This document shows positions 29,884 through 37,196 of a stretch of 37,196 bases of DNA, in pieces. The notes under the pieces are model-generated. The model ran no database searches. It was not told where the DNA came from and saw only the letters and a list, made by a program, of their open reading frames with translations. Numbering within the stretch: position 1 is the stretch's first letter; every line of letters begins with the position of its first letter. The DNA lies in contig JAFQZI010000106.1 in the NCBI GenBank assembly GCA_017406005.1, positions 1 through 37,196 on the forward strand, in the 5' to 3' direction. The stretch comes from Oscillospiraceae bacterium (lineage in GTDB: Bacteria > Bacillota > Clostridia > Oscillospirales > Oscillospiraceae). The position numbers were made by a program, and so were the translations under genes.

Positions 29884-30339
29884 ATGAATATTGAGAGAAG
29901 AATCGAAGAACTTGGGATCCGTCTGCCGGATTCCTCTCCGCCAAAGGCGATGTATATTCCGGTTAAGCAGGTTGGCAATACCCTCTTTGTCGCGGGGCAG
30001 ATCCCGATGGCAGACGGTGTGATGCTCTATCCGGGCCATGTCGGTGAAGAGGTGACGCTGGAACAGGCACAGGAAGCTTCCAGGCAGTGCATTGTCAACA
30101 TGCTCTCTGCACTTCGAACCTATCTTGGAGATCTTGACAGAGTAAAGAACATCGTGAAAGTTCAGGCTTTTGTCAGCAGCAGGATCGGTTTTAATCAGCA
30201 GCATATCGTAGTCAACGCTGCTTCACAGCTTCTTTATGATATTTTTGGAGAAGCGGGCCGCCACGCAAGGACTGCCGTCGGGGTCAATCAGCTCCCGATG
30301 GATGCGCCGGTAGAAATTGAAGCTATAGTAGAAATCTGA
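29884..30339 (+). CDS. RidA family protein
   Basis: A 151-residue protein of the RidA/YjgF family, slightly longer than the classical 125-130 residues because of an N-terminal extension. It has GNTLFVAGQIPM, LEQAQEASRQC, VKVQAFVSS and the C-terminal RTAVGVNQLPMDAPVEIEAIVE. The end keeps the family glutamate, but the usual arginine-containing CRAAV-type substrate site is replaced by ARTAVGV. It may deaminate enamine/imine intermediates or belong to one of the paralogous Rid groups with other roles. GGAGG lies 9 bases before the ATG. It is followed by the terminator at 30356-30392. Confidence 0.9.
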   Translation: MNIERRIEELGIRLPDSSPPKAMYIPVKQVGNTLFVAGQIPMADGVMLYPGHVGEEVTLEQAQEASRQCIVNMLSALRTYLGDLDRVKNIVKVQAFVSSRIGFNQQHIVVNAASQLLYDIFGEAGRHARTAVGVNQLPMDAPVEIEAIVEI

Positions 30340-30410: not shown

Positions 30411-30439
30411 TTGACGTTCCCGACTTAATAGACTATAGT
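30411..30439 (+). promoter_or_regulatory. Promoter of the redox operon
   Basis: TTGACG (30411-30416), a 17-base spacer and TATAGT (30434-30439) each match five of six consensus bases. The start would be near 30446, leaving a 40-base leader with AAGGAGG before the ATG at 30486. The six genes downstream have no other obvious promoter. Confidence 0.8.
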
Positions 30440-30485
30440 TATCCTATAAGTTTTTGCTGTGGTAAGGAAGGAGGAATTCTCTCTC

Positions 30486-32564
30486 ATGTATGATATGTTG
30501 CTGTCTCCGATGAAAATAGGCAGTATGACCGTAAAAAACCGCACGGTAATGACGGCTGCAGAATTCAGCCTTGGGCAGACAAACGGCAAACCTACGGAAC
30601 GATTAATGGATTATTATGAGGAAAGGGCAAAAGGCGGGGTAGGCTTAATCATTCCTGGGATTTGCCGTGTCAATGATATGGGCGGTGCATCGACTTTTAC
30701 GCAGCTCGCCATGAGCCATGACTATCATATTGAACCAATGCGTGAATTTGCCGAACGCATCCATCGGCATGGTGCGAAACTGTGCATTCAGCTTCATCAT
30801 CCGGGCCGGCAGGGGATGGCCAGTGCCATTAATTCCTTACCGTTTGTGATTCCGGTTGCCGACCGGTTTCCGGGCGTCATGGATCAGATTTTCAAATGCA
30901 CGCCTCTGCTGCTTGGAATGGAAGCCAAAGGGATTTGCTTTTCCGTCCAGGCACCTTCCAAGGTGGAACTTGCCAAACACGGTGCAACGAGAATGCATGC
31001 CATGTCAAAAAAAGAAATGCATGCGCTCATTTCCGACTTTGTTGAAGCTGCTGTACGCTGTCAAAAAGCAGGAGTCGACTGTGTTGAACTCCATGCCGGA
31101 CATGGCTATATTATCCAGCAATTCCTCTCTCCTCATACCAATCGACGTACGGATGAATACGGCGGCAGTTTTGAAAACCGCTTGCGTTTTCTCACGGAGA
31201 TCATTCAGGGAATTCGGGAGCACTGCGGGCGTGAATATCCGCTTACCGTCAGGTTGACCGTTGACGAGATGTATGCGCGTATCGGACGGGCAGGCATCGG
31301 TTATGACCTGGAAACAGGAAAGCAGATCGCAAAGCGGCTGGAAGAGTTGAGTGTGGATGCGATCAATGTGACTTCTGCCTGCTATGATGCCTATAATTAC
31401 TGGCTGGAGCCGACCTCCTTTGAACCGGGCTGGCGTAAATATCTTGCACGTGAGATCAAAAGCGTGGTTTCTATTCCAGTGATTGCAGCAAATGTCATTC
31501 GGACACCCGAGCAGGCTGAACAACAGCTTGAAGAAGGTGATCAGGACTTCGTAGCATCAGCGCGCACGTTTATCTGTGACCCTCATTGGGTTAATAAGGC
31601 TGCTGAAGGCCGCCAGGATGAGATCCGCCGCTGTATCGGATGCCTCAATTGTATCCGTTCGTTTATGACAAATGCTGGAATCGGCAAACCGGGCGAATGC
31701 GCACTGAATATGAGCGTGGCAAGAGAAAAGATGTACTTCAGTATGCCGCGGGACGGTGAAGGCAGAAAAATCGTAGTGATCGGTGCCGGGCCGGCAGGGC
31801 TTACTGCGGCGCAAACGCTTGCCATGCGTGGTTTTGACGTGAGTGTCTTTGAAAAGGAGCAGAAACCCGGTGGGCAGGTATTAACTGCGGCAGAGTGCCA
31901 TCTAAAAGATAAACTTTACTGGTGTATTGAGGATCTGATTGTAAATGCTCAAAAAGCCGGAGCAACCATCAGGCTCGGATGCGAGCTGACTGCAAAGGAA
32001 ATTGCTGAGATGGATCCTTGGGCTGTTATAGTATCAACCGGGGGTGAGCCAATCCGTCCAGGCTCGATTTCAGGGATAAACGGTGAGAATGTCTTTACCG
32101 CACCGCAGATCATTCATCGGGAAGAGATATTGAAAGACTCAAGAGTTGTTGTGGCAGGTTCCGGTATGACAGGGCTTGAAACAGCAGAAATTCTGAATGA
32201 GACAAACAATCAGATCACGGTTATTGAGATGGCAGATGAAATTGCTCCGGGCACCTGGTTCCAGCTTGTAGATGATGAGATGGAGCGTCTGGCTGGCACC
32301 GGTACACAATTTGAACTGAACACAAAACTGCTTGCAGTAGACAGCAAATTTGTCACGGTAGAGGATGTCAGGACCGGTGAGCAGCGACGGATCCCGGCGG
32401 ATTATCTGGTTCTTTCGCTTGGTGTGCGGCCTGCGGGCAATCTTGCCCGAGAGCTTGATCTGCTGAGTGTTCAGCGTATCTATTGCGTAGGCGATGCGGT
32501 GAAGAGCGGCACCATAGCGGATGCCTGCCACAGTGCCTATGATACCGTAATGGCTATTCTTTAA
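30486..32564 (+). CDS. Old-yellow-enzyme/Fe-S/FAD reductase (dienoyl-CoA reductase/BaiCD-like)
   Basis: A 692-residue flavoenzyme. ATG 30486 (MYDMLLSPMKIG) is preferred over the GTG at 30459, as AAGGAGG lies 11 bases upstream. Residues 1-~350 form the FMN TIM barrel, with HAGHGY (H203, H206) and HTNRRTDEYGGS. A [4Fe-4S] site follows with C383, C386, C389 and C405 (C-x2-C-x2-C-x15-C, closer to trimethylamine dehydrogenase spacing than to FadH). Then come an FAD-binding motif IVVIGAGPAGL (~429) and a second NAD(P) motif VVVAGSGMTGLE (~553). Relatives reduce conjugated C=C bonds of enoyl-CoA, steroid or enoate substrates. Between GRQG and QAPS there are ~45 residues, where FadH has about 8, giving a larger substrate-side insertion. 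The substrate is unknown. Confidence 0.9.
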   Translation: MYDMLLSPMKIGSMTVKNRTVMTAAEFSLGQTNGKPTERLMDYYEERAKGGVGLIIPGICRVNDMGGASTFTQLAMSHDYHIEPMREFAERIHRHGAKLCIQLHHPGRQGMASAINSLPFVIPVADRFPGVMDQIFKCTPLLLGMEAKGICFSVQAPSKVELAKHGATRMHAMSKKEMHALISDFVEAAVRCQKAGVDCVELHAGHGYIIQQFLSPHTNRRTDEYGGSFENRLRFLTEIIQGIREHCGREYPLTVRLTVDEMYARIGRAGIGYDLETGKQIAKRLEELSVDAINVTSACYDAYNYWLEPTSFEPGWRKYLAREIKSVVSIPVIAANVIRTPEQAEQQLEEGDQDFVASARTFICDPHWVNKAAEGRQDEIRRCIGCLNCIRSFMTNAGIGKPGECALNMSVAREKMYFSMPRDGEGRKIVVIGAGPAGLTAAQTLAMRGFDVSVFEKEQKPGGQVLTAAECHLKDKLYWCIEDLIVNAQKAGATIRLGCELTAKEIAEMDPWAVIVSTGGEPIRPGSISGINGENVFTAPQIIHREEILKDSRVVVAGSGMTGLETAEILNETNNQITVIEMADEIAPGTWFQLVDDEMERLAGTGTQFELNTKLLAVDSKFVTVEDVRTGEQRRIPADYLVLSLGVRPAGNLARELDLLSVQRIYCVGDAVKSGTIADACHSAYDTVMAIL

Positions 32565-32600
32565 AACAAATAAAAGTAATGATTAGGAGAGTGAAGAGAT

Positions 32601-33428
32601 ATGATCTCGTATAAAAACATCATCGTTACCGGAGCATCGAGTGGAATCGGGAAATCCATTATGGAGGAATTGCTGGAGCAGGAAGGAAACCGTATTCTTG
32701 CTGCCTGCCGCCGTGCTGAAAAGGTTGCAGGATATGGGGAAAATGTTGTCCCGTTTTCCTGTGATCTAAGTACACAGGAAGGAATGGATGCCCTGTTTGC
32801 AAAAGCAGAAGAATTGTTCGACAAGGTTGACATCTTTTTCTGCAATGCAGGTGCACCGTACTATGAGCGCTTTGATTATGAAGACTGGAATCGTATTGAG
32901 AGCATTTTCCGGGTCAACACCATTTCCCATATTTATGCTTACTCGAAATACCTTCACCACCTCAACGGGCGGGAAGGACGGCTGGTATACACCATTTCAG
33001 CCATGGGTGAAATGGCATTGCCCGGTTATGCGCTCTATGCTGCTACAAAGTTTGCTATGAAGGGATTTCAGCAGGCGATTCGCGATGAAACGCCGGACAA
33101 TCTGAAGATTACCTGTGTCTATCCCGTCTCGACCAAGACAAACTTCTTTAACGTTGGCGGCGGGGGCCGTAAGGTTGAGCCGCCGTTTCCCGTACAGGCG
33201 CCGGAGAAAGTCGGTAAAGCTGTTGTCAAGGGTGTGAACAAGCTCAAAGAGCATATTTATCCCTGTTCAGCATATTTGCCGAGTAAGTATCTGATGAAAG
33301 TTGTCCCGCCTGTCAAATCGATGTACGTCGGAGCCCAGAAAAGAAAACTCCACCGCTTTGTCAAACGCCTGAAAGCGGAGGAGGAAGGAATTCTTGAAAA
33401 TATGAAACTGAAGCATACAATGAAATGA
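32601..33428 (+). CDS. Short-chain dehydrogenase/reductase in redox operon
   Basis: A 275-residue classical SDR. The nucleotide site is VTGASSGIG near residue 10, FFCNAGAP gives the NAG motif, and the catalytic residues are S133 (TISAMG) and the Y146-x3-K150 of YAATK. The C-terminal ~70 residues are unusually basic and long (KYLMKVVPPVKSMYVGAQKRKL...), which may give membrane or hydrophobic-substrate contact. It would act on a hydroxyl or ketone, and the order OYE then SDR parallels pathways that reduce an unsaturated ketone and then its carbonyl. It starts 36 bases after the OYE gene, with AGGAGAG upstream of the ATG. Confidence 0.9.
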   Translation: MISYKNIIVTGASSGIGKSIMEELLEQEGNRILAACRRAEKVAGYGENVVPFSCDLSTQEGMDALFAKAEELFDKVDIFFCNAGAPYYERFDYEDWNRIESIFRVNTISHIYAYSKYLHHLNGREGRLVYTISAMGEMALPGYALYAATKFAMKGFQQAIRDETPDNLKITCVYPVSTKTNFFNVGGGGRKVEPPFPVQAPEKVGKAVVKGVNKLKEHIYPCSAYLPSKYLMKVVPPVKSMYVGAQKRKLHRFVKRLKAEEEGILENMKLKHTMK

Positions 33429-33440
33429 GGAGGAAGCATC

Positions 33441-34583
33441 ATGGGAAATATTCATGACATTACCCGCGACGCCTTTATGCTGAGAGGACCGCTTTCCAAA
33501 AAGGGTTACGACTGGTGGTGGCATTCTCTGACCGCTGAACATGCCGAGACCGGCGAGAAAAAGCCTTTTTATATCGAATTTTTCGCCTGTAATCCGGCAC
33601 GTGCCAAGGATGAACCTGTCATTGTCTGGAACGACCCCGAAAAACAGAAGCAGGGTATTCTGCCTTCTTATGTGATGGTCAACGTCGGTTACTGGGGAGA
33701 GGACCATGGACAGCTTCATAACTTTTACCCCTGGAAGGATGTAAGCCTGCATCCTGATGCACCTTTTGCGATCTCATGCGGCGGATGCACCTGTTCGGAA
33801 ACACACACGGAGGGCAGTGTAAGTGTTACACCGGAGCAGGTGAGAGAACATCCGGAGTGGATGTGTGACGCCGGGAGTATGAGCTGGAAGCTCGACATCG
33901 ACAAACAGATTGCTTTCCATGTCGGCTATGGTGCGAGCAGGTTTTTCCGGAATATCAACGCGTTTGAGATGTTCTGGCACGCTGAAGGAATGAAGACCAA
34001 ATACAGCGGCGAGATTATTCTCAACGGAGTGAAGTATCTTGTCCGTCCGGAAACCTGTAACGGATATGCTGACAAGAACTGGGGCGGCGACTTTACTTCT
34101 CCATGGGTCTGGCTTTCAAGCAATGATCTCAGGAGCCGCATCACCGGAAAGAAATTGGAAAACTCCGTCTTTGAGATTGGGGGCGGTCGCCCGAAGATCG
34201 GCCCTGTTGCATTGAACCGAAAACTGCTGGGCGAGTTCTACTATGAGGGGAAGGACTATGAATTCAACTTCTCAAAATTCTGGACTCTTTCCGGTACAAA
34301 GTTTGATTGTGAAGAGACGGAAGATGAAATCCATTGGCATGTTGTGCAAACAACGGCGAAGGCGAAGCTTGACACGGAGATTCGATGCAGGAAAAAGGAT
34401 ATGCTGAATATTAATTATGAAGCCCCGACCGGGCTCAAACGACATAACCGCCTTTGGAATGGAGGAACCGGAACAGGTGTGCTGAAGCTCTATGAACGCG
34501 GCCTGTTCGGGAAAGAGACCCTGATTGATGAAATTGAAGCAGTCAACATCGGCTGTGAGTTCGGAGAATACGACAGCGTATGA
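33441..34583 (+). CDS. Tocopherol-cyclase-like (calycin) protein
   Basis: A 380-residue protein without signal peptide or membrane helices. The segment GYADKNWGGDFTSPWVW (about 206-225) closely resembles the hallmark (A/G)YAEKNWG...WFW of plant and cyanobacterial tocopherol cyclase, and YDWWWHSLTAEH at the start with beta-rich repeats fits the two-barrel calycin fold shared with CrtC/AttH-like hydratases. Tocopherol cyclase closes the chromanol ring of a prenylated quinol. Here the ligand is unknown: the fold binds large hydrophobic molecules, which could be a quinone, terpenoid or steroid. It starts 12 bases after the SDR and overlaps the AOR gene by 4 bases, so it is a fixed part of the operon. 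Fold call moderate; activity is inference. Confidence 0.7.
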   Translation: MGNIHDITRDAFMLRGPLSKKGYDWWWHSLTAEHAETGEKKPFYIEFFACNPARAKDEPVIVWNDPEKQKQGILPSYVMVNVGYWGEDHGQLHNFYPWKDVSLHPDAPFAISCGGCTCSETHTEGSVSVTPEQVREHPEWMCDAGSMSWKLDIDKQIAFHVGYGASRFFRNINAFEMFWHAEGMKTKYSGEIILNGVKYLVRPETCNGYADKNWGGDFTSPWVWLSSNDLRSRITGKKLENSVFEIGGGRPKIGPVALNRKLLGEFYYEGKDYEFNFSKFWTLSGTKFDCEETEDEIHWHVVQTTAKAKLDTEIRCRKKDMLNINYEAPTGLKRHNRLWNGGTGTGVLKLYERGLFGKETLIDEIEAVNIGCEFGEYDSV

Positions 34584-36559
34584 CTTCTTTCATGGGAAAG
34601 ATTCTTCGAGTGGACCTGGTCACGCAGACTGCAGACAGTATCAGTGTTCCACCGGAGATTTATGAGGCAGTTCTTGCCGGCAAAGGGTTGGAGGCATGGT
34701 ATCTTTACAGCCATATTCCTGCAGGAGCCGATCCTCTCGGGCCGGAGAATATTCTCGCTTTTGCAGCAGGAGCACTCTGCGGCACCGGTGCATTTCTGAC
34801 CGGGCGCTGGACTGTAGCCTGTAAGAGTCCGCTGACCGGCGGTTGGGGAGATGCCAATTGCGGGGGGCTCTTTGCACCGGCTATCAAACAATGTGGTTAT
34901 GATGCAATCTTTATTTCCGGAATTGCTGAAAAGCCGGTCTACCTTTTCTGCGACGGGAAGAACGTAGAAATACGTGATGCTTCCGCCTACTGGGGGCTTG
35001 ATGCCACAGAGACGGAAAAGGCGCTGCATGCGGATCTTGACGGAATATGCCGTAAAAAACCCTGTATTGCATGTATTGGTCCAGCCGGAGAAAAATGCTC
35101 CTTCATCTCCGGTATCTGCAACGAAGGTGGGCGCATTGCTGCACGCAGCGGCGTCGGGGCTGTCATGGGCAGCAAAAGGCTTAAGGCTGTGGTGCTCGCC
35201 GGCGCGAAGGCAATTCCCTGTGACGACCCGGCGAAGGTTAAGGCACTTTCGAAGGAGTTGGGGGAGAAGCTTTTAAAAATGACGTTGCCCACCGGTCTTG
35301 GTGTCCTGATTGGCGCGGGCGGAACAATGATGGGGCATTTGCCTAGTATTCCGCTTGATGGTTCTCTTACTTCTTATATGTTTCGCGAGTGGGGGACGCA
35401 GGCGAATACCTCTCTCGCAATCACGAGTGGAGACGGGCCGATCAAAAACTGGAGCGGGACACCGCATGATGTGCGTCTGATGGATCTGGTCTATAACCCG
35501 GAGCATATCAATCGAATAGAAACAGTCAAATATCACTGTTACTCCTGTCCTCTCGGCTGTGGCGGAAAGCTGAACATCCGTGGAAGGAAGTATGCAGAGT
35601 TTGATGAGACACATAAACCGGAGTATGAGACGATTGAAGCATTCGGCCCGTTACTTATGAACTGGAGCCTCGATTCCATCTATCAGCTCAATGAGCTTTT
35701 AAACCGTGCGGGGATGGACACCATTTCAGCCGGCAACACCGTCGCATGGGCAATTGAATGCTATGAAAACGGACTTTTGACAAGGGATCAGACGGACGGT
35801 CTGGAGCTCACATGGGGTAATACCGAAGCTGTCCTTCAGCTTGTAAAAAATATGATTGCTCGTAAAGGTTTCGGGGGTGCCATAGCTGACGGCGTGAAAC
35901 GCGCTTCGGAAAAGTTTGGAGGCAAAGAATATGCCATGCATATTGGCGGGCAGGAGCCCGGCATGCATGACGCCCGCAACGATCCACAGTTGGGGATCCA
36001 TTTCGTGGCAGAACCGGCTCCGGGGAAGCACACCGTTGGAATGAGCATCGAATACAGTGCCATGAGCCTGTGTGATATATGCTCCTGGGCACCGCCTGCC
36101 AAACCGCATGCCAAATCCCGCGATGTGGAAGACCTGGAGGATATTGCGCTGATCTCCAAAGCCAATGCCTGCTATACAATGCTCACTGACGGCGCAGGCG
36201 GGTGCTATTACGGGCAGATGATGGGGGTCCATATGTGGAAACTCATAGAGTATCTGAATGCTGCAGAAGGATGGAACTATGACGGAGACCACTATATAGA
36301 AATCGGAGAACGTATCCAGGCTTTACGGCAGCTTTTCAATATCAAGCAGGGTTTTGACCCGGCTGCTGTCAAGCTGCCTGATCGCATGCAGGGGATTCCT
36401 CCTCTCCCTTCAGGACCGCTCAAGGGGATTACGCTGCGCAATCGTGACCAGGTTTCTGCTCACTGGAGGGCATTCGGCTGGGATGACAAAACCGGAGTTC
36501 CTCTCCCGGACACAGTAAAACAGCTTGGGATCGACAGGTTGACGGAGGTGATATTATGA
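34580..36559 (+). CDS. AOR-family tungsten/molybdenum oxidoreductase
   Basis: A 659-residue aldehyde:ferredoxin oxidoreductase family protein of normal length. The N-terminal domain has the bis-pterin site region TGRWTVACKSPLTGGWGDAN followed by GYDAIFISGIAEKP. The [4Fe-4S] cluster ligands are C320, C323 and C327 (HCYSCPLGC) and C542 in DGAGGCYYG. Family members bind tungsten or molybdenum by two pterins and oxidise aldehydes or reduce acids, and some (BamB-like) act on aromatic acyl-CoA. Cytosolic, with electrons passing to ferredoxin. It shares ATGA overlaps with the genes before and after it, and the ferredoxin and MoaD-like genes downstream supply electron transfer and cofactor assembly. 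Substrate is not known. Confidence 0.93.
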   Translation: MTSFMGKILRVDLVTQTADSISVPPEIYEAVLAGKGLEAWYLYSHIPAGADPLGPENILAFAAGALCGTGAFLTGRWTVACKSPLTGGWGDANCGGLFAPAIKQCGYDAIFISGIAEKPVYLFCDGKNVEIRDASAYWGLDATETEKALHADLDGICRKKPCIACIGPAGEKCSFISGICNEGGRIAARSGVGAVMGSKRLKAVVLAGAKAIPCDDPAKVKALSKELGEKLLKMTLPTGLGVLIGAGGTMMGHLPSIPLDGSLTSYMFREWGTQANTSLAITSGDGPIKNWSGTPHDVRLMDLVYNPEHINRIETVKYHCYSCPLGCGGKLNIRGRKYAEFDETHKPEYETIEAFGPLLMNWSLDSIYQLNELLNRAGMDTISAGNTVAWAIECYENGLLTRDQTDGLELTWGNTEAVLQLVKNMIARKGFGGAIADGVKRASEKFGGKEYAMHIGGQEPGMHDARNDPQLGIHFVAEPAPGKHTVGMSIEYSAMSLCDICSWAPPAKPHAKSRDVEDLEDIALISKANACYTMLTDGAGGCYYGQMMGVHMWKLIEYLNAAEGWNYDGDHYIEIGERIQALRQLFNIKQGFDPAAVKLPDRMQGIPPLPSGPLKGITLRNRDQVSAHWRAFGWDDKTGVPLPDTVKQLGIDRLTEVIL

Positions 36560-36783
36560 CAAAGAAGAAGCCGGTGTTTGACTATCTTCTCTGTGTCAGC
36601 TGCGGAATCTGTGCGCAGGCGTGTCCTGTGTCTGCCATCGGCATGATGAAGGAGGGGAAAAGCGGAAAATATCGTAATCTGTTTCCGGAACTTGTTAAAG
36701 ACAATTGCATTGGCTGCGGCAGATGTGCGGATTCCTGCCCGATGGATGTTATCCGAATGGAGGAAGCGGACAGTGAGAGTTAA
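36556..36783 (+). CDS. 2[4Fe-4S] ferredoxin
   Basis: A 75-residue ferredoxin-like protein with two complete cluster motifs, CVSCGICAQACP (C13, C16, C19, C23) and CIGCGRCADSCP. A short 20-residue insertion of charged residues (KEGKSGKYRN) separates them, longer than in the classical clostridial ferredoxin. It should be the electron partner or small subunit of the AOR-family enzyme, whose gene it overlaps by 4 bases (ATGA). Cytosolic. The same gene also contains the ribosome site and start of the next gene. Confidence 0.95.
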   Translation: MTKKKPVFDYLLCVSCGICAQACPVSAIGMMKEGKSGKYRNLFPELVKDNCIGCGRCADSCPMDVIRMEEADSES

Positions 36784-37006
36784 AATCCTTCCGCCGCATG
36801 GCAGTGACCGAAGCATGCTTGACGAGCGATCCTGGGCAGATCTGCCGGAAGGCACCACCGTGCGTGATACCCTCCGCCTTATCCGTTGCAGCCCGCTGAA
36901 AGCAAAGGTTTTGCTGATCAGTGTCAACGGCGAACGCAGCCCGCTGGATCGCGAGCTGCGTGAAGGTGATGTTGTAGGCTTCTTTTTCCCGATTTCCGGC
37001 GGCTAA
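36773..37006 (+). CDS. MoaD/ThiS-like sulfur carrier protein
   Basis: A 77-residue ubiquitin-fold protein with a GTG start at 36773, which has GGAGG at 36759-36763 (9-base spacing). The longer frame from 36692 would lie inside the ferredoxin gene and has no site. VRVKILPPHG at the start, LPEGTTVRDTLRLI, VNGE and DREL..GDVVGFFFPISGG give the MoaD/ThiS pattern, including the C-terminal Gly-Gly that is adenylated and thiocarboxylated. It probably donates sulfur for the pterin cofactor of the AOR-family enzyme, as such proteins often sit beside AOR genes. Its gene overlaps the ferredoxin end by 11 bases and is followed by a terminator. Confidence 0.88.
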   Translation: MRVKILPPHGSDRSMLDERSWADLPEGTTVRDTLRLIRCSPLKAKVLLISVNGERSPLDRELREGDVVGFFFPISGG

Positions 37007-37009
37007 ATA

Positions 37010-37054
37010 AAAAAGTTCTTAATTCCTCAAAACAAGAAGAATTAAGAACTTTTT
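37010..37054 (+). terminator. Terminator at the end of the redox operon
   Basis: A 16-base-pair stem (37010-37025 with 37039-37054; left arm starts AAAAAGTTC, right arm ends GAACTTTTT) with a 13-base loop. T and A runs at both ends make it usable from either strand, so it may also end transcription of the minus-strand tRNA or element gene. Confidence 0.88.
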
Positions 37055-37057
37055 CTA

Positions 37058-37087
37058 TGCTCCAGCGGGGACTCGAACCCCGCTGGA
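37058..37087 (-). other. tRNA 3' fragment, probable attachment site (attR-like)
   Basis: Read on the minus strand this is a T arm with loop TTCGAGT closed by CGGGG/CCCCG, followed by the acceptor 3' strand CTGGAGC and discriminator A. The inner part forms a perfect 10-base inverted repeat (TCCAGCGGGG at 37061-37070 with its complement at 37078-37087). The sequence on its 5' side is not tRNA-like: no D arm or anticodon arm is present. A 3' tRNA fragment of this kind is left where an element has integrated into a tRNA gene; the intact tRNA would be at the other end of the element, beyond the window. Confidence 0.6.
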
Positions 37088-37107
37088 TTTGCTGACTATA
37101 CCAGTAT

Positions 37108-37196
37108 TTACTGGGGGTTTTGATTTTCATTAGTAATTCCGTTAGCAATTAGGCCATTAAAAAATTCGTTGATCTTCTCCGCGTATTCCACCTTGC
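37108..37196 (-). CDS. C-terminal end of an element gene, possibly integrase (cut by window end)
   Basis: An open minus-strand frame enters at 37194 and stops with TAA at 37108-37110. It gives 28 residues, KVEYAEKINEFFNGLI... ending NENQNPQ. A helix then a polar tail is what tyrosine recombinases often have at their end, and int genes commonly sit next to an attachment site, here 21 bases away. The visible part is too short to prove the family. A small inverted repeat CCAGT/ACTGG overlaps the stop. Confidence 0.4.
   Translation of the reverse strand, partial: KVEYAEKINEFFNGLIANGITNENQNPQ

Follow-up and report, generated by a model that had tools for sequence, protein, structure and literature searches.

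Conversions of the kind discussed here have been described in the rumen and in Lactobacillus. In the rumen, phytol is turned into phytanic acid by way of dihydrophytol and phytanal (PMC7551613); reduction of a C=C bond, oxidation of an alcohol and oxidation of an aldehyde are needed, and section 4 of that paper names no bacterial genes for this conversion. Linoleate saturation in Lactobacillus (CLA-HY, CLA-DH, CLA-DC, CLA-ER) follows, in the available part of PMC13365329, a logic of hydration or isomerisation, short-chain dehydrogenase and enone reductase, without an aldehyde-oxidising step. Among individual enzymes, BaiCD, bilirubin reductase and 2,4-dienoyl-CoA reductase combine a flavin barrel with Fe-S cysteines and an NAD(P)/FAD domain. 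Kievitone hydratase, Fsa2/CghA/Phm7 and 25-phosphosteroid lyase are AttH/CrtC/tocopherol cyclase-like double-lipocalin enzymes whose substrates, going by structure titles, are prenylated, polyene or steroid.

The window, by which we mean the whole stretch analysed, comprises 37,196 nt from Oscillospiraceae bacterium GCA_017406005.1 (contig JAFQZI010000106.1, positions 1-37,196, forward strand). It holds an operon with the enzyme types that the rumen phytol conversion needs. These genes appear to encode a pathway not characterised before, in which a fatty molecule of plant origin, perhaps the phytol of chlorophyll, is both reduced and oxidised and in which a so far unstudied enzyme family, here called CAL, takes part. 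The features are as follows.

30411..30439, + strand: promoter-like site TTGACG-17-TATAGT, 10/12 match (consensus only)
30486..32564, + strand: OYE-type ene-reductase (OYE), 692 aa; PF00724 235 bits, PF07992 99 bits; GGAGG before the ATG
32601..33428, + strand: short-chain dehydrogenase/reductase (SDR), 275 aa; PF00106 112.6 bits
33441..34583, + strand: CAL, predicted AttH/CrtC/tocopherol-cyclase-type fold, 380 aa; below every Pfam and NCBIfam cut-off
34580..36559, + strand: aldehyde:ferredoxin oxidoreductase family protein (AOR), 659 aa; PF01314/PF02730
36556..36783, + strand: two-cluster ferredoxin (Fd), 75 aa; Fer4 domains
36773..37006, + strand: MoaD/ThiS-like sulfur carrier (MoaD), 77 aa, GTG start, C-terminal GG; PF02597
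37010..37055 (about), + strand: terminator of the operon, an AT-rich hairpin with a U-run at the end of its 3' arm
37058..37087, - strand: stretch resembling the 3' half of a tRNA (read by eye), a possible attachment site beyond the operon

All six genes were confirmed where an earlier note on this DNA had placed them, and domain searches agree with its calls for OYE, SDR, AOR, ferredoxin and MoaD. OYE and SDR are 36 bases apart, SDR and CAL 12; as the note had it, the last four genes overlap, by 4 (CAL/AOR), 4 (AOR/ferredoxin) and 11 bases (ferredoxin/MoaD). An alternative in-frame GTG for OYE, at 30459, lacks a good ribosome-binding site, and the GTG at 36773 is our pick out of several in-frame MoaD starts, the PF02597 score of 31.6 bits having been obtained on the longer frame 36692-37006.

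The first two genes form the core of the operon and its tightest pair. OYE consists of a flavin barrel with a C-terminal FAD/NAD domain and Fe-S cysteines (Cys 383/386/389/405), and both its PF00724 score and a His-x-x-His-Gly-Tyr motif (HAGHGY at 203; H203/H206/Y208) place it among the OYE-family ene-reductases. In these enzymes the HxxHGY motif has a carbonyl- or substrate-binding role; it is missing from both of the closest solved structures, NCR and 2,4-dienoyl-CoA reductase. The protein falls below the NCBIfam cut-offs for BaiCD (401/825 bits), long bilirubin reductase (382/750) and mycofactocin OYE_2 (412/793), and differs from BaiCD and bilirubin reductase both in these scores, about half of the equivalog cut-offs, and in being fused to SDR in Mogibacterium-type loci. 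SDR is a classical member of its family (GASSGIG at 11, YAATK at 146). It adjoins OYE in 10/10 own-family genomes with a close OYE, and in 12 Mogibacterium-type loci the two make up a single protein of ~1000 aa with no stop between them, so that they likely have a substrate or product in common.

CAL is a strong yet separable partner of this pair. The Pfam family Tocopherol_cycl (PF14249) matches residues 173-276 only, at 23.5 bits (23.2 in the genome search) against a cut-off of 26.6; we therefore rejected CAL as an established tocopherol cyclase, and a guess at its fold needed structure. The predicted structure is a double-lipocalin, two-barrel calycin fold of the AttH/CrtC/tocopherol-cyclase type over the whole protein, which bears out the fold that the earlier note had proposed and offered for checking. 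TM-scores are just 0.39-0.51 among the best nine Foldseek rows, and the best solved match by sequence is an unrelated protein (E 0.63). Unlike its fold relatives, with which it shares 6-13% identity, CAL lies below the Pfam cut-off and is tied to redox enzymes. The family looks new; the enzyme types of the operon are known, and their combination looks new. A possible selenocysteine (in-frame TGA) in CAL of two genomes (G033, G186) was discarded, since no stop interrupts the aligned part of the protein, and CAL was not found on plasmids in PLSDB at E 1e-5.

How firmly do these genes keep company? Among own-family genomes, a close OYE occurs in 8/8 with a CAL at least 66% identical (our own included) and in 2/292 others (Fisher 3e-14), a contrast to be read knowing that this identity cut was picked after the data had been seen, that only the three best OYE candidates per genome were scored and that our Fisher tests ignore phylogeny. 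CAL and OYE-SDR lie on different contigs in four of these eight. In the Butyrivibrio genus, OYE-SDR is found in 4/4 genomes with an operon-clade CAL and in 0/75 others (Fisher 6.7e-7). The remaining 45 CAL genomes of the two samples are without an operon-type OYE (5/30 own-family CAL matches are fragments), and two congeners (G109, G264) have OYE-SDR without CAL. A tree of 117 CALs (121 before removal of duplicates) places 60/60 OYE-near CALs in one clade of 80 rows (support 99) and none among the 37 rows outside it, the placement of four long branches (L110, L111, L112, L116) being unsure. Two CALs lost in ORF calling (L036, L047) are absent from clusters and tree and were counted by tblastn; three pairs of loci (L113/L045, L114/L074, L115/L102) are apparently the same contigs, both members being counted in the tblastn locus survey; and unlabelled neighbour genes are unreliable because the ORF picker is crude. 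CALs without OYE occur in the Butyrivibrio genus and in genomes of 4.5-7.6 Mb, so CAL has some activity apart from the operon. Conservation, fusion and co-occurrence led us to reject a chance neighbourhood.

The fourth gene encodes an AOR by sequence: it has both AFOR_N and AFOR_C (PF02730, PF01314), the 4Fe-4S cysteines (Cys 320/323/327/542) and E350 and H484 as equivalents of Glu313 and His448 of 1aor. 1aor is the P. furiosus enzyme, in which these cysteines, Glu313 and His448 have functional roles. Ranked by score, it comes first among nine solved matches (310.8 bits) and BamB, the class II benzoyl-CoA reductase, last (160 bits). Unlike 1aor, this AOR is part of an operon of six genes that includes a ferredoxin and a MoaD of its own. 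AOR-Fd-MoaD is nonetheless an optional, detachable module: it is missing from many OYE-SDR-CAL loci, and in four loci of the Butyrivibrio genus an aldehyde dehydrogenase (ALDH) follows CAL in the position of AOR, AOR being absent from all three searched genomes of these loci. A homologue of this ALDH at another locus (L064), 62-64% identical to three Butyrivibrio ALDHs, resembles benzaldehyde, class-3 and fatty aldehyde dehydrogenases. AOR and ALDH appear to exclude one another (0/33 versus 7/29, p 0.003), a biased figure because five of the seven ALDH genomes were chosen for ALDH beside CAL and the AOR genomes for AOR. Close forms of AOR and of ALDH are both absent from 22/32 chosen genomes, and an acid step is therefore not essential. 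The replacement of AOR by ALDH suggests aldehyde oxidation rather than the carboxyl reduction that the earlier note had also envisaged. Its view of the six genes as one working set holds in that the set is conserved, in varying forms, across many ruminant-gut bacteria; it does not hold as a fixed unit, and the separation in relatives that the note had named as a counter-check is partly seen. The set is modular.

From the gene set, the catalytic motifs, the predicted CAL fold, the co-occurrence, the fusion and the ALDH in the position of AOR, we infer an order of reactions, a class of substrate and a chemistry for CAL. We tentatively favour, with a probability of about 0.35, a gut pathway, encountered mostly in genomes from ruminant guts, that acts on an allylic alcohol, enal or enone of plant origin and hydrophobic character and in which SDR, OYE and CAL are followed by AOR or ALDH and phytol is the likeliest single substrate; the hydrophobic, unsaturated substrate of the earlier note is thus kept as the best guess. 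SDR would oxidise the alcohol to an unsaturated carbonyl (or work in reverse) and OYE would use NAD(P)H to reduce the conjugated C=C; a saturated aldehyde or alcohol would result from the two enzymes together. CAL might bind the greasy substrate and carry out a cofactor-free acid-base step at a C=C, be it isomerisation, hydration or the reverse. AOR would take the aldehyde to the acid, the electrons being recovered as reduced ferredoxin by the operon's own ferredoxin, and MoaD would help to supply the pterin cofactor of AOR; in some relatives a class-3-like ALDH may perform the acid step, and others would do without it. On chemistry and habitat, the candidate route that fits best is from chlorophyll-derived phytol through dihydrophytol and phytanal to phytanic acid. 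In its favour, source statements for 80 named loci mention ruminants in 31 cases and horse faeces in one; against it, 16 of the 30 titles that name an organ of goat, sheep or buffalo refer to the intestine and not to the forestomach. CAL has no obvious job in the phytol reading, and Mogibacterium-type clusters also hold an amidohydrolase, an Fe-dependent alcohol dehydrogenase and an HGD-D pair, which the pathway proposed here leaves partly unexplained. Rather unlikely, in our view, is a broader reading in which the operon supplies the genes so far missing for the biohydrogenation of phytol to phytanic acid in the ruminant gut, and in which CAL founds a new family of cofactor-free gut isomerases, hydratases or lyases of plant prenyl lipids; its other branches would carry out similar chemistry, perhaps the isomerisation of fatty acids, throughout the gut Firmicutes.

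There are other scenarios that might account for the same genes. The operon might serve biohydrogenation of unsaturated fatty acids, with CAL as a cofactor-free isomerase or hydratase, SDR making a keto acid from a hydroxy acid and OYE reducing the enone, steps that parallel the hydratase/dehydrogenase/isomerase/enone reductase route of Lactobacillus (PMC13365329, available part). CAL would then be a candidate for the apparently unassigned linoleate isomerase of Butyrivibrio, a gene that was not found in a B. fibrisolvens strain or in other Butyrivibrio according to the available part of PMC6249431. That CAL is present without the other genes in numerous genomes, as might be expected of an isomerase that detoxifies, and occurs in 27/79 genomes of the Butyrivibrio genus speaks for this idea. 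Against it, PMC6249431 also reports an oleate hydratase, which is another candidate for a hydration step. The latter count cuts both ways, however: it is just a third, and isomerisation is regarded as widespread in the Butyrivibrio group. AOR or ALDH would moreover be left without a role, and we regard this scenario as improbable. The Lactobacillus hydratase, isomerase and enone reductase belong to protein families other than those of the operon.

Equally doubtful is that two unrelated modules, an OYE-SDR-CAL pathway and an AOR-Fd-MoaD unit for aldehyde detoxification or electron supply, simply became co-transcribed. The many loci without AOR-Fd-MoaD would fit, as would the further, diverged AOR copies in several genomes; against it, the unit accompanies CAL in both Oscillospiraceae-type and Mogibacterium-type loci despite shuffling of other cluster genes, and ALDH takes its place in the four Butyrivibrio-genus loci. 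Nor do we think it likely that the operon reduces ring compounds (sterols, bile acids, triterpenoids or other enone-forming plant compounds), with SDR making a ketone, CAL shifting or creating a C=C, OYE reducing the enone and AOR or ALDH acting on a side-chain aldehyde: such an aldehyde is an additional assumption, OYE reaches about half of the equivalog cut-offs, and the neighbours selected for scanning included no recognisable gene for bile acids or sterols. Handling of tocopherols or quinones, in which CAL would open or close the chroman ring or hydrate the phytyl C=C of plant tocopherols to give tocopherolquinols (reportedly electron donors for biohydrogenation in Butyrivibrio), is very improbable, since the weak Pfam match and the agreement in fold at superfamily level are offset by a score under the cut-off and by an OYE-SDR fusion and AOR/ALDH that would go unexplained.

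In the open-licence PMC literature searched, the gene set is undescribed by title or abstract start; no paper there combines tocopherol cyclase with aldehyde ferredoxin oxidoreductase or tocopherolquinone with Butyrivibrio, tocopherol cyclase and rumen return only papers unrelated by title, and the available part of PMC7339423 holds nothing on genes. If the proposed pathway is real, it connects bacteria of the ruminant gut, largely without cultures so far, with a conserved conversion of lipids or terpenoids and makes CAL a new enzyme family on a versatile fold. It would then also provide, through three Butyrivibrio strains (MC2021, AE3009 and VCB2006) and the natural OYE-SDR fusion enzyme, a directly testable gene set for rumen chemistry to which we saw no genes assigned, be it the formation of phytanic acid or the biohydrogenation of unsaturated fatty acids.

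Concerning expression, the terminator claimed for the operon is strong: its hairpin folds at -21.7 kcal/mol (z -6.5), equalled by 0/200 shuffles, and is absent from the GC-rich terminator scan list because it is AT-rich. The near-consensus promoter is present as a 10/12 match but constitutes weak evidence, because 15 sites in the region scanned match at 9/12 or more, compared with an expected 7.0 +/- 2.4. The tRNA-like stretch comes after the end of an ORF that could, by eye, be an integrase C-terminus. ARAGORN calls no complete tRNA, and no Rfam family exceeds its gathering score within the window. In relatives, a tRNA lies near the operon in 7/19 loci scanned, and the kinds differ: tRNA-Gly 340 bases after MoaD (L033), tRNA-Val about 330 bases before OYE (L040), tRNA-Ser 1.3-2.2 kb before OYE (L046-L049) and tRNA-Leu 4.7 kb after MoaD (L054). 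Such variety may leave room for an insertion site. Together with the presence of CAL in 3/6 and of OYE in 4/6 sampled genomes of the genus, it makes plausible the earlier suggestion that the operon is accessory in the species.

The operon is a real, conserved and modular pathway with a new protein family, here called CAL (the 380-residue protein of predicted AttH/CrtC/tocopherol-cyclase-type fold and its homologues), and for it we can name candidate substrates only. Each enzyme it encodes belongs to a known kind; a search of open-access papers did not turn up the combination. Window sequence and domain searches give the following layout:

29884-30339, RidA-like gene upstream of the operon (domain search)
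30486-37006, six genes in one direction: OYE (ene-reductase), SDR (short-chain dehydrogenase/reductase), CAL, AOR (aldehyde:ferredoxin oxidoreductase family), ferredoxin, MoaD
37058-37194, minus strand, tRNA 3'-half-like stretch adjoining the last 28 residues of an ORF, which may be the C-terminus of an integrase; the contig terminates there

Gaps of 36 and 12 bases are followed by overlaps of 4, 4 and 11, so that the overlaps an earlier note claimed for the last four genes are borne out by measurement. The terminator it called strong is convincing (hairpin z -6.5, equalled by none of 200 shuffles). Its near-consensus promoter exists as a 10/12 match, but matches of at least 9/12 occur at about twice the expected number in the scanned region. 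A hairpin-like stretch with a T-rich tail, judged by eye and absent from the terminator scan, follows the RidA-like gene. The source genome is a draft (completeness 92.9%, contamination 6.6%), but relatives bear the same gene set, which rules out an assembly artefact. In six relatives (L046, L047, L048, L049, L040, L033) the operon has tRNA genes of differing kinds at distances of 0.3-2.2 kb, a pattern that an insertion hot spot might produce.

The association of OYE, SDR and CAL follows CAL ancestry. Our neighbourhood set comprised 123 loci (three pairs apparently identical contigs), 88 of them with at least 3.5 kb on each side of CAL; among these 88, close OYE and SDR share the stretch with CAL in 43/52 loci where CAL shares at least 70% identity with that of the window, in 3/6 at 65-70% and in 0/30 below 65%. 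On a CAL tree of 117 rows, a single clade of 80 rows (support 99) takes in all 60 CALs with OYE within six genes; the 37 remaining rows have no such neighbour, and the label changes 14 times versus 39.4 in shuffles. Gene orders include OYE-SDR-CAL-AOR-ferredoxin-MoaD, CAL-SDR-OYE and OYE-SDR-CAL-ALDH (aldehyde dehydrogenase), and OYE and SDR form a single stop-free open frame of 968-1055 codons in 12 Mogibacterium/Crickella-type loci.

Whole genomes agree. Of 300 genomes from the window organism's family, 30 have CAL (own genome counted; five of these CALs are fragments). Scoring the three best OYE candidates per genome, 15 pass E 1e-130, ten at least 68% identical to the window OYE and the other five 42-50%. 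All 8 genomes whose CAL reaches 66% identity (own genome counted) have the close OYE, against 2/292 of the remainder (G109 and G264) and 0/22 other CAL genomes (Fisher 3e-14 and 1.7e-7 against the latter two groups, with a 66% cut set after the data were seen and kinship ignored). SDR adjoins OYE in all ten; OYE and CAL lie on separate contigs in G130, G191, G169 and G220. In the Butyrivibrio genus, CAL occurs in 27/79 genomes and OYE in 4/79, exactly those with operon-clade CAL and none of the 23 with other CALs.

The idea that all six genes are one working set holds in part: two congeners of the window's organism (G109 and G264, loci L190 and L191) keep OYE-SDR with no CAL at E 1e-5, and AOR-ferredoxin-MoaD is an optional module. 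Four Butyrivibrio-genus loci (L069, L073, L078, L171) carry ALDH in its place after CAL, and AOR is absent at E 1e-10 from their three searched genomes. An ALDH homologue at L064, which shares 62-64% identity with three of the four, best matches an unspecified aldehyde dehydrogenase (291.5 bits), followed by benzaldehyde (252.6) and class-3 and fatty aldehyde dehydrogenase (239.6). Among 32 chosen genomes, close AOR orthologues occur in 3, close ALDH in 7, both in none and neither in 22; 30 further AOR-positive genomes hold no close ALDH, with one 36% match only. The combined exclusion (0/33 versus 7/29, p 0.003) comes from a biased sample, because the AOR genomes, and five of the seven with ALDH, were selected for these genes. 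Aldehyde-to-acid chemistry as an add-on step has modest support from these data.

The 692-residue OYE joins an FMN barrel to a Pyr_redox domain (domain search), has four cysteines (383, 386, 389, 405) and falls far under the BaiCD, bilirubin reductase and mycofactocin cut-offs in a family profile comparison. Its nearest solved chains, NCR and 2,4-dienoyl-CoA reductase, have AIVGY and GSEGY where it has HAGHGY (position 203), which we take to be the carbonyl-binding pattern of enal/enone reductases. SDR shows GASSGIG and YAATK motifs. AOR aligns best, among solved chains, with 1aor, and its Cys 320, 323, 327 and 542, Glu 350 and His 484 coincide with corresponding positions there. Ferredoxin and MoaD are ordinary family members by domain search. 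A second, diverged AOR (32% identical) lies elsewhere in the own genome (G000:C118:25096-26886).

What might the pathway act on? SDR and OYE would pair for alcohol-carbonyl conversion and C=C reduction, CAL would transform a greasy unsaturated substrate without a cofactor, and AOR or ALDH would finish by oxidising an aldehyde. A review reports a rumen route from phytol through dihydrophytol and phytanal to phytanic acid (PMC7551613), which calls for the activities assigned to these enzymes, a match of chemistry rather than proof. As to habitat, among the best 80 of at least 581 CAL matches in named genomes, 31 titles state a ruminant source and one a horse; many others bear RUG codes, presumably rumen genomes, and the 30 naming a goat, sheep or buffalo organ divide into forestomach (14) and intestine (16).

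A main rival to the phytol reading is fatty acid biohydrogenation. CALs that lack an OYE would fit an isomerase, and a B. fibrisolvens genome paper found no linoleate isomerase gene, though it reports an oleate hydratase (PMC6249431); biohydrogenation leaves no role for AOR or ALDH.

CAL also occurs without OYE, SDR, AOR or ALDH nearby (L138, L166-L170, most of L116-L132 and L174-L185), with no partner gene widely conserved, and must have a function outside the operon. Such CALs come from many genomes, among them 4.5-7.6 Mb ones belonging to another family of the phylum. Overall, CAL is present in 6/75 genomes of one genus with genomes of that size, and in 4/398 of a phylum-wide sample (own genome counted). 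In two Butyrivibrio-genus genomes (L172:8347-10017 and L173) a non-operon-clade CAL has a divergent ALDH and a DUF362 protein on its flanks.

Mogibacterium-type clusters additionally hold an amidohydrolase and an Fe-dependent alcohol dehydrogenase, the latter fitting alcohol/aldehyde chemistry. Seven (L059, L066, L056, L057, L058, L061, L071) carry a 2-hydroxyacyl-CoA dehydratase-like (HGD-D) gene pair, which suggests a low-potential reduction step; in two it is internal:

L059:6893-9621, HGD-D pair between ferredoxin and MoaD
L066:11406-14134, HGD-D pair between ferredoxin and MoaD

The amidohydrolase and alcohol dehydrogenase repeatedly lie between CAL and AOR (L061:9214-10788, L056:9116-10390); in some loci the amidohydrolase lies upstream of OYE instead.
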